A stretch of DNA of 36,769 nucleotides from NCBI GenBank assembly GCA_025927955.1, contig JAICKK010000013.1, positions 1-36,769 of the forward strand. Direction: 5' to 3'. Source of the stretch: Nocardioidaceae bacterium. Lineage in GTDB: Bacteria; Actinomycetota; Actinomycetes; Propionibacteriales; Nocardioidaceae. A program made the position numbers and the translations under genes. Under the pieces are notes generated by a model, which saw nothing but the letters and a program-made list of their open reading frames with translations, did not search any database and was not told the origin of the DNA. This document shows positions 34,458-36,769 of the stretch, in pieces (position 1 is the stretch's first letter; every line of letters starts with the position of its first letter).

Positions 34458-35048
34458 ATGGTCGAGCTGGCGAGGCTGACCGGCGCCTGCTCGGCCGTCG
34501 GTGGCGCCGCACTGTCGGCGGCCTGCCTCGTCCACAACTCGCTCCCCCAGGGTTGCATCGACGCGGGGTGTGAGAGCCGCGTCATGCGCGGCTCCTCGCC
34601 GGCGGACCTGGTGCTGTTCGCGGTCGCCGGCCTCATGCTCGCCGTCAGCGGCGTCGGTCTCCTCCTGCTGACCCGCCGCAAGCGAGGCGGCCGAGGTGCG
34701 ATGGTGGCGACCGCCGGGATCGCGGGTGCAGCCGGGCTGGTGCTGTTGCTGGCGGCTGCAGTCGTGTCCACGTTCGTCGACAACAACTGGGAGGGGATGC
34801 CCGGTCTGGTCGTCCCCGGGGTCGCGCTGCTGGCCCTGGGCCTGGTCCTCGTGGCCGTCGTCGTCATCCGCGCCCGCGTCCTGCCGACGCCGCTGTCGGC
34901 GCTCCTGCTGGCCACCGTGGTGACGCTGCCGTTCGCGAACGAGCAGACCTCGCGGATCCTGCTCGCCGTTCCCTTCGGGCTGACCTGGCTCGGCGCAGGT
35001 GTGCTGCTGCTGCGCTCGAGCGAGGACGGGACGGCGGCTCTCGCCTAG
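34458..35048 (+). CDS. Multi-TM membrane protein of unknown function
   Basis: 196 aa, hydrophobic segments, CIDAGCESR segment. Confidence 0.7.
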   Translation: MVELARLTGACSAVGGAALSAACLVHNSLPQGCIDAGCESRVMRGSSPADLVLFAVAGLMLAVSGVGLLLLTRRKRGGRGAMVATAGIAGAAGLVLLLAAAVVSTFVDNNWEGMPGLVVPGVALLALGLVLVAVVVIRARVLPTPLSALLLATVVTLPFANEQTSRILLAVPFGLTWLGAGVLLLRSSEDGTAALA

Positions 35049-35072: not shown

Positions 35073-36761
35073 GTGAGCGCACCGACGCCGGCGATCGTGC
35101 TGGTCTCCGAAGACCATGCCGACGACCTGCTCGACGAGTTCGGACGCTACGCGCGCGACTACGCTCTCGAGGTCGCGCACTCCTGTGCCGACGCGCTCGC
35201 GGTCACCGAACGGGTACGCGCCGCCGGCGGCACGGTGGCGCTGTTCGTCGCCGAGTCGGTGCTGCCCGACGCGCCCATCCTGGCGGCGTTCGGGAGGTGG
35301 CGCGAGGTGGTGCCGACCGCCCGACGGCTGATCGCCGCCCACTACTCGCGGTTCCTCCTCGATGCACCCGGGCTGCGGGCCGGCATGGCCAAGGGCAAGT
35401 ACGACGCCTACCTGCTGATGCCGCGGGGGCCACGCGACGAGGAGTTCCACAACGCGGTCACCGACCTGCTCTCCGACTGGGGCTCGACCGTCCCTGACCC
35501 CGAGGTCGTGGCCGTCAAGGTCATCTCGCCGGCCCAGGACGTCCTGACCCTGTCGATCCGCGACTTCCTCGACCGGATGGGCATGCCCAGCAGGGTCTAC
35601 CACCCCGACAGCCAGGTCGGCCGGGCCGTGCGAGAGCAGCATCCGGACCAGGAGGGCTACCCCCTCGTGCACGCACCCGACCGGCCGGCGGTCGTGGCGA
35701 CCTCGGTGCGCGACGTGGCGCTGTCGATCTACGGCGCACCCACCGATCTCGACGTCGACCACGTCGTGGACGTGGTGGTGGTGGGCGGCGGACCCGCCGG
35801 GCTGGCGACGGCGGTGTACGCGGCCTCGGAGGGCCTGAGCGTCGTGGTGCTTGAGGCGGAGGCGATCGGCGGCCAGGCGGGCACCAGCTCGATGATCCGC
35901 AACTACCTCGGCTTCCCGCGCGGCATCTCCGGCATGCGGCTCGCCCAGCGGGCGCGCAACCAGGCCCTGCGGTTCGGGACCCGCTTCTTCACCGGCCAGG
36001 TCGTCGAGGAGCTGCGGATCGGGAAGGACGGCGCTGCGCACGTCGTCTGCACCGACGCCGGCCGGGTCCACACCCGGAGCGTCGTGGTCACCAGCGGCGT
36101 CACCTACCGCAAGCTGCGCGTCGAGCCCATCGAGCGGCTGGTCGGGATGGGTGTCCACTACGGCGCGGCCATGTCGGCGGCCCGTGAGATGGAGGGCCAG
36201 GACGTCTTCGTGGTCGGCGGCGGCAACTCCGCCGGGCAGGCGGCGGTGCACCTCTCGCGCTTCGCCCGGTCGGTCACGATCGTCGTACGACGCCGCGACC
36301 TGGCCGAGACGATGTCGGCCTACCTTCTCGGCGAGATCGCCTACAACCCCCGGATCGCCGTGCGGACCCGCGCGACCGTCGTCGACGGCGGCGGTGAGGG
36401 CCACCTCGAGTGGCTGTGCCTGGAGGACGTCGACATCGGCCAGCGCACCCGCGTCCCGGCGTACGGCCTGTTCCTCCTGCTCGGCGCCGAGCCCCACTGC
36501 GACTGGCTGCCGCCGGAGGTGGCGCGCGACGGGCGTGGGTTCGTCCTCACCGGCCGCGACGTCCCGAAGGACCGCTGGCCCGACGGCCTGCCGCCCGCGA
36601 ACCTCGCCACGACGGTGCCCGGCGTCTTCGCCGCCGGCGACGTCCGCTCGGGCTCGATGAAGCGGGTGGCCGCGGCCAGTGGCGAGGGCGCCTCCGTCGT
36701 ACCCCTCGTGCATGCCTGGTTGGCCGAGGGGCTCGAGGAGCGAAGGGTGGGGCAGCCATGA
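35073..36761 (+). CDS. Fused pseudo-receiver / thioredoxin-reductase-like FAD oxidoreductase lacking CxxC
   Basis: N-terminal REC-like IVLVSEDHADDL...LFVAESVLPDAPI; FAD motif VVVVGGGPAGLATAVYAASEGLSVVVLE; NADP motif VFVVGGGNSAGQAAVHL; GVFAAGDVRSGSMKRVAAA. Confidence 0.88.
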   Translation: MSAPTPAIVLVSEDHADDLLDEFGRYARDYALEVAHSCADALAVTERVRAAGGTVALFVAESVLPDAPILAAFGRWREVVPTARRLIAAHYSRFLLDAPGLRAGMAKGKYDAYLLMPRGPRDEEFHNAVTDLLSDWGSTVPDPEVVAVKVISPAQDVLTLSIRDFLDRMGMPSRVYHPDSQVGRAVREQHPDQEGYPLVHAPDRPAVVATSVRDVALSIYGAPTDLDVDHVVDVVVVGGGPAGLATAVYAASEGLSVVVLEAEAIGGQAGTSSMIRNYLGFPRGISGMRLAQRARNQALRFGTRFFTGQVVEELRIGKDGAAHVVCTDAGRVHTRSVVVTSGVTYRKLRVEPIERLVGMGVHYGAAMSAAREMEGQDVFVVGGGNSAGQAAVHLSRFARSVTIVVRRRDLAETMSAYLLGEIAYNPRIAVRTRATVVDGGGEGHLEWLCLEDVDIGQRTRVPAYGLFLLLGAEPHCDWLPPEVARDGRGFVLTGRDVPKDRWPDGLPPANLATTVPGVFAAGDVRSGSMKRVAAASGEGASVVPLVHAWLAEGLEERRVGQP

Positions 36762-36769
36762 CCGACGCA
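36758..36769 (+). CDS. Start of the next gene (MTDA..., truncated by window end)
   Basis: ATGA overlap with the oxidoreductase stop. Confidence 0.5.

Follow-up and report, generated by a model that had tools for sequence, protein, structure and literature searches.

Fusion of a receiver domain to a thioredoxin reductase (TrxR)-like flavoprotein is an architecture recorded in a census (PMC5847659), and in the literature that we searched this mention stood alone, with no functional or biochemical study of the fusion family. Other described systems resemble it in part. Bacterial pseudo-receivers have the receiver fold without its catalytic residues and are common in orphan genes that have no partner kinase (PMC12632262). 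The TrxR-type ferredoxin/flavodoxin:NADP+ oxidoreductases (FNRs) have the TrxR fold and intact FAD and NAD(P)H motifs without a CxxC, and their FAD hands electrons directly to a partner with no dithiol relay (PMC10294844). AhpF carries a thioredoxin-fold domain N-terminal to a TrxR-like module, with a redox cysteine pair in both parts.

The protein considered here is encoded at the right end of the window, by which we mean the whole stretch of DNA analysed (36,769 nucleotides), which is one whole contig of a Nocardioidaceae draft genome (G000; 3.79 Mb, 284 contigs, ~87 percent complete). It shares domain order, length and CxxC loss with the fusion family, whose members are called 'FAD-dependent oxidoreductase' in RefSeq and are ~36-46 percent identical to it. 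Unlike the canonical members, which keep the receiver pocket of Asp61, Thr/Ser89 and Lys116 (D/T/K) and have a cNMP-HATPase kinase gene adjacent, its branch has neither. It is like the pseudo-receivers of PMC12632262 in fold, in its missing catalytic residues and in its orphan gene; unlike them, it has a flavoenzyme as output and has diverged too far for PF00072 to pick it up in this sequence. It is like the TrxR-type FNRs of PMC10294844 in its TrxR fold without CxxC and in both coenzyme motifs, but it has extra N-terminal domains, a sequence closer to TrxR and no C-terminal FAD-stacking extension. AhpF, which is among the top Foldseek matches, shares the thioredoxin-fold/TrxR-like order, whereas the window protein is without both cysteine pairs and has a pseudo-receiver in addition. 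The same middle domain and CxxC-less flavoprotein domain are also found in a 'Cyclic nucleotide-binding domain-containing thioredoxin-disulfide reductase' (WP_260640578.1); in proteins of this type, seen beside a UBP-type zinc finger gene, a cNMP-binding domain replaces the receiver. Neither a kinase-uncoupled pseudo-receiver branch nor family-wide absence of CxxC is described in the literature searched. We compared 171 receiver-bearing relatives: 30 kinase-adjacent forms, 30 kinase-less intermediates and 111 in the window protein's clade. The features discussed below are as follows.

35073-36761, forward strand: pseudo-receiver / glutaredoxin-like / TrxR-like flavoprotein gene (562 aa, GTG start)
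35091-35483, forward strand: pseudo-receiver domain, residues 7-137, (beta-alpha)5 fold by AlphaFold and Foldseek
35106-35111, forward strand: S12-E13 at the site of the DD acidic pair of receivers
35253-35255, forward strand: Glu61 at the phosphoacceptor position (Asp in 45/111 clade members)
35337-35339, forward strand: Ala89 in place of the receiver Thr/Ser
35418-35420, forward strand: Met116 in place of the receiver Lys
35508-35744, forward strand: Cys-less glutaredoxin-like middle domain, residues 146-224, by AlphaFold order and family profile
35661-35663, forward strand: invariant Pro197, occupying the cis-Pro site of the thioredoxin fold (presumably cis)
35784-35801, forward strand: FAD motif GGGPAG, residues 238-243
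35898-35900, forward strand: Arg276 (RNYLGF); almost all kinase-linked and receiver-less relatives have Glu here (ENYLGF)
36162-36173, forward strand: G364-A-A-M367 where TrxR has its CxxC (alignment with CATC of M. tuberculosis TrxR)
36183-36188, forward strand: R371-E372 at the TrxR FF (thioredoxin-docking) site
36216-36233, forward strand: NAD(P) motif GGGNSA, residues 382-387
36288-36293, forward strand: R406-R407, part of an HRRxxxR-like NADPH motif
36498-36500, forward strand: Cys476, clade-specific (104/111 in the clade; Thr in almost all relatives)
36758-36769, forward strand: possible further gene start in an ATGA overlap with the stop codon; the contig ends at 36769

Domain anatomy and locus

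The open reading frame is not a chance one, because full-length relatives occur in ~70 other actinobacterial genomes, including Nocardioides, Terrabacter, Phycicoccus and Gordonia; the loci of its closest relatives match the window only inside the ORF and share nothing around it. An AlphaFold model built with 57 family members (mean pLDDT 84.7 overall, and 92.6 over residues 1-226), together with Foldseek and paralogue alignment, shows a single chain made up of a receiver, a middle domain and a TrxR-like flavoprotein. Foldseek with the N-terminal domain returned receiver domains (best E 9.6e-7). A Pfam search found no PF00072 match in the window protein; PF00072 does match a paralogue in the same genome (L002, 2.7e-17) and, weakly, one of the intermediates, and the window protein's receiver identity is one of predicted fold and of paralogues, not of Pfam. 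The middle domain has in the model the beta-alpha-beta-alpha-beta-beta-alpha order of glutaredoxin, and a profile of it made from all branches has M. tuberculosis glutaredoxin Rv3198.1 as its best solved relative (5.5e-6), with the Pfam Glutaredoxin family matching in 5/27 members. Assignment of this domain to a Pfam family from the window protein alone failed, and only the family profile finds glutaredoxins. There is no conserved cysteine pair at this domain in any branch of the family alignment. An earlier note on this DNA had seen here a thioredoxin/glutaredoxin fold without Cys and had placed the ORF, Glu61, the GAAM tetrapeptide and the GGGPAG and GGGNSA motifs; our analysis bears out both the fold and the placements.

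Residues 231-553 are TrxR-like by sequence comparison and Foldseek, with the FAD GxGxxG and NAD(P)H GxGxxA motifs both intact, and the flavoprotein model is closer to TrxRs in the flavin-reducing form (TMt 0.88 to 5mh4/3cty) than in the flavin-oxidising form (0.61 to 5mjk). The protein ends 12 residues past the point at which ~30 residues of the FNR 5twb remain, and its predicted secondary structure ends with a TrxR-type helix. Because the C-terminal FAD-stacking extension is missing, we do not file it with the TrxR-type FNRs.

A putative membrane protein of 196 aa (window 34458-35048) ends 24 bases upstream of the flavoprotein gene; it has no Pfam match above cut-off and is not conserved beside flavoprotein relatives. 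At the other end, the sequence ATGACCGACGCA (window 36758-36769) contains an ATGA overlap with the stop codon, a pattern typical of translationally coupled genes. In many Nocardioides (L005-L080) the gene has truA on one side and a carbohydrate kinase gene on the other, near rplQ-rpoA-rpsD-rpsK-rpsM, and in other genera it lies elsewhere; these neighbours (truA, rplQ, rpoA, rpsD, rpsK and rpsM) are what we take them to be from inspecting their sequences by eye. We rejected an assignment of function from neighbours, as in Nocardioides the conserved ones are housekeeping genes that sit at one common place on the chromosome, and among the family loci compared no conserved neighbour names an electron acceptor.

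The lost dithiol site and clade-specific residues

In TrxR, the CxxC is followed by an FF thioredoxin-docking motif (PMC9025218), and the window protein has neither; its clade reads R-E at the FF site. The CxxC is missing in 171/171 receiver-bearing relatives and in nine receiver-less ones, from which it follows that its loss predates the receiver changes. Positions 364-367 read G[ASTV]xx in all receiver-bearing relatives, with G[AS]A or similar in the ~70 nearest full-length ones; the same holds further out, in Actinomycetota, Deinococcus, Nostoc, Gloeothece and Burkholderiaceae, and in receiver-less or cyclic-nucleotide-domain forms A or G replaces the first Cys. That the protein is nonetheless a genuine thioredoxin reductase could be argued from its best solved sequence relatives, which are TrxRs, and from the naming of some relatives as thioredoxin-disulfide reductase; we regard this as barely credible, given both missing motifs, a score of 187.3 bits against NCBIfam TIGR01292 (TRX_reduct), which is below the curated cut-off of 343.45, and a separate ordinary TrxR with CATC in the same genome (L003). 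None of the relatives examined has the catalytic Cys pair, so the annotation misleads. Judged from the sequence, dithiol TrxR activity of the window protein is very unlikely, and on this point the earlier note, which had doubted thioredoxin reduction, was right.

Thiol chemistry could also proceed by another route, with Cys476, together with Cys433, acting as a monothiol or mixed disulfide in place of the CxxC. The clade-wide prevalence of Cys476 at a position that is Thr in nearly all relatives, and the presence of Cys433 in 80/111 members, speak for such a route, but Cys476 is Ser, Gly or Ala in several members, the window protein has Arg rather than Cys433, and M. tuberculosis TrxR has Ser at 476, suggesting a small structural residue. 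We consider this route improbable, although conservation of Cys476 leaves a thiol role possible. A different single cysteine, Cys373, lies near the lost CxxC in 23/30 kinase-linked forms (e.g., L002, L182, L183, L190 and L191) and 8/9 receiver-less forms and is lost in kinase-less forms.

Other residues set the branch apart. Glu276 is changed to Arg in all kinase-less forms. R407, present in 111/111 clade members and not in other branches, sits at the second Arg of the NADPH motif HRRxxxR (PMC8564101) and is consistent with NADPH use. Taken together, the branch-specific changes suggest altered coenzyme use and an altered flavin environment.

The pseudo-receiver and the adjacent kinase

All five receiver active-site residues are changed in the window protein (S12, E13, E61, A89 and M116), and these changes place it within the definition of a pseudo-receiver (PMC12632262). 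Across its clade the acidic pair has become Ser or Ala plus a variable residue, with the first Asp lost in 107/107 aligned sequences; Thr/Ser at 89 is lost in about 90 percent, mostly to Ala; and Lys116 is lost in 111/111, with Met, Ile, Ala, Leu or Val instead. The domain is still under purifying selection: dN/dS between close relatives is mostly 0.02-0.3, with three comparisons higher, and R102, R121, F125 and H126 are identical in 107/107 clade sequences. Glu61 lies directly after strand beta3 (residues 55-60) in the AlphaFold model, in agreement with the earlier note, which had put it at the phosphoacceptor position; the receiver is indeed non-canonical. The further proposal that Glu61 is a fixed phosphomimetic that locks the receiver is one that we reject. 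Of the 111 clade members, 63 have Glu at position 61 and 45 have Asp, with at least 12 interchanges on the tree, and because Thr and Lys are gone in Glu and Asp members alike, Glu61 cannot be taken for a phosphoryl mimic of the usual sort.

The state of the pocket follows the presence of a kinase gene. D/T/K is complete in 30/30 kinase-adjacent forms, 3/30 kinase-less intermediates and 0/111 clade members, so that only 3/141 forms without an adjacent kinase gene keep it, one of these three having 2 bases of flank on one side and hence an uncertain kinase status; these counts overstate the correlation, which reflects very few independent evolutionary events, the tree needing only a handful of changes to account for it. 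For the same reason, the Fisher value computed for the association is no true probability. Four kinase-linked loci are among the 29 that were added last, after the pattern had been seen; all 29 fit it except those three intermediates. We found no adjacent kinase beside any clade member examined; at the window copy the downstream side is cut by the contig end, so a kinase there is possible, though we found none beside its clade relatives. The adjacent kinases have cNMP_binding and HATPase_c domains (Pfam), and the genome of the window protein also carries a canonical paralogue, L002, with such a kinase next to it (L002, L081).

In a tree computed without the receiver columns, the window protein's clade is supported 100/100 and the kinase-less forms split from the kinase-linked and receiver-less forms at 100/100. 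An earlier quick tree agrees on the split and has the kinase-linked forms as one clade; the more careful tree leaves unsettled whether kinase-linked or receiver-less forms are basal, and our claim is limited to the split. The receiver, as far as sequences can tell, decayed separately from the CxxC loss and in step with loss of the kinase neighbour. This does not agree with the view in the earlier note that CxxC and receiver were lost in combination, since the CxxC is also absent where an intact receiver stands beside a kinase gene. Overall, that note's interpretation is upheld in its doubts about TrxR activity and about a canonical receiver, and fails in the phosphomimetic lock and the single combined loss.

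One could still suppose that an orphan kinase encoded at some other locus phosphorylates the receiver with low efficiency, the Glu members being constitutively on. Position 61 is acidic in almost all members, and phosphorylation can survive a substitution at DD, T or K (PMC12632262). The losses of Lys, of the first Asp and of Thr/Ser across the clade nevertheless count against this, as do the repeated interchanges at position 61 and the failure to find any member with an adjacent kinase, and we think it quite improbable.

In the canonical arrangement the receiver/TrxR-like gene is followed by the cNMP-binding/HATPase kinase gene, often with a 4-base overlap, and this conserved pair spans Actinomycetota, Deinococcus, Cyanobacteria and Burkholderiaceae (L151:3977-7484, L152:3908-7391, L154:3995-7059, L155:3938-7074, L158, L162). 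It has the look of an uncharacterised two-component system whose output is a flavoenzyme. A UBP-type zinc finger gene comes after the kinase in some actinobacteria, and such genes recur beside the flavoprotein family whatever its N-terminal domain, including 8/9 receiver-less loci (receiver-less forms: L136-L141, L159 and L160; other loci in the set: L057, L070, L144, L145, L148, L167 and L168). This suggests that the UBP-type zinc finger protein is a functional partner of the flavoprotein family. Two genes of this kind lie on contigs C22 and C71 of the genome to which the window belongs.

Electron transfer, sensing and the retained receiver domain

We lean, with modest assurance, toward the window protein belonging to a kinase-uncoupled branch of the receiver/TrxR-like fusion family and working as an NAD(P)H flavoprotein that transfers electrons directly from FAD, with the pseudo-receiver as a fixed module. 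Direct support exists for the domain anatomy (by model), the lost residues, the clade structure, the kinase association and the purifying selection; we infer where the hydride comes from, that electrons are transferred directly and what the pseudo-receiver does. In the canonical branch, the adjacent kinase would presumably phosphorylate the receiver and so control the flavoprotein. The actinobacterial branch has lost the kinase neighbour together with every element of receiver chemistry, yet has retained the receiver domain. Judging from the motifs, NAD(P)H, probably NADPH, would give hydride to FAD, and because no dithiol relay is left, FAD would pass the electrons on directly, either to a partner protein or to a small acceptor, as the TrxR-type FNRs do. 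The pseudo-receiver and middle domain probably provide fixed surfaces for docking or oligomerisation, or else a site for a ligand.

The main rival, one of the two roles that the earlier note had offered, is a non-enzymatic redox sensor: the redox state of NAD(P)H/NAD(P)+ or of FAD would set the rotation of the domains, and a partner would be informed of it through the pseudo-receiver or the middle domain. Receiver ancestry, the conserved pseudo-receiver residues, the lost dithiol chemistry and the absence of metabolic neighbours would all suit such a sensor, and there are precedents for ligand or partner binding by pseudo-receivers (PMC12632262). However, an output partner or conserved regulatory neighbour is absent, and the flavoprotein part is the most conserved, with a mean commonest-residue frequency of 0.80 as compared to 0.67 for the receiver, which fits catalysis at least equally well. 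We consider the sensor unlikely, and electron transfer is the role that we favour by inference.

One may tentatively go further and picture a phosphorelay-controlled flavoenzyme family from which a kinase-independent branch arose, the former receiver there directly sensing a ligand or partner and regulating a flavoprotein that lacks redox cysteines. A two-component part would thereby have become a one-component redox switch; we regard this as speculative. The family is in any case a natural contrast, with phosphorylatable and non-phosphorylatable receivers on the same enzyme and both within one genome, and this contrast offers an enzyme readout by which to test how pseudo-receivers work.
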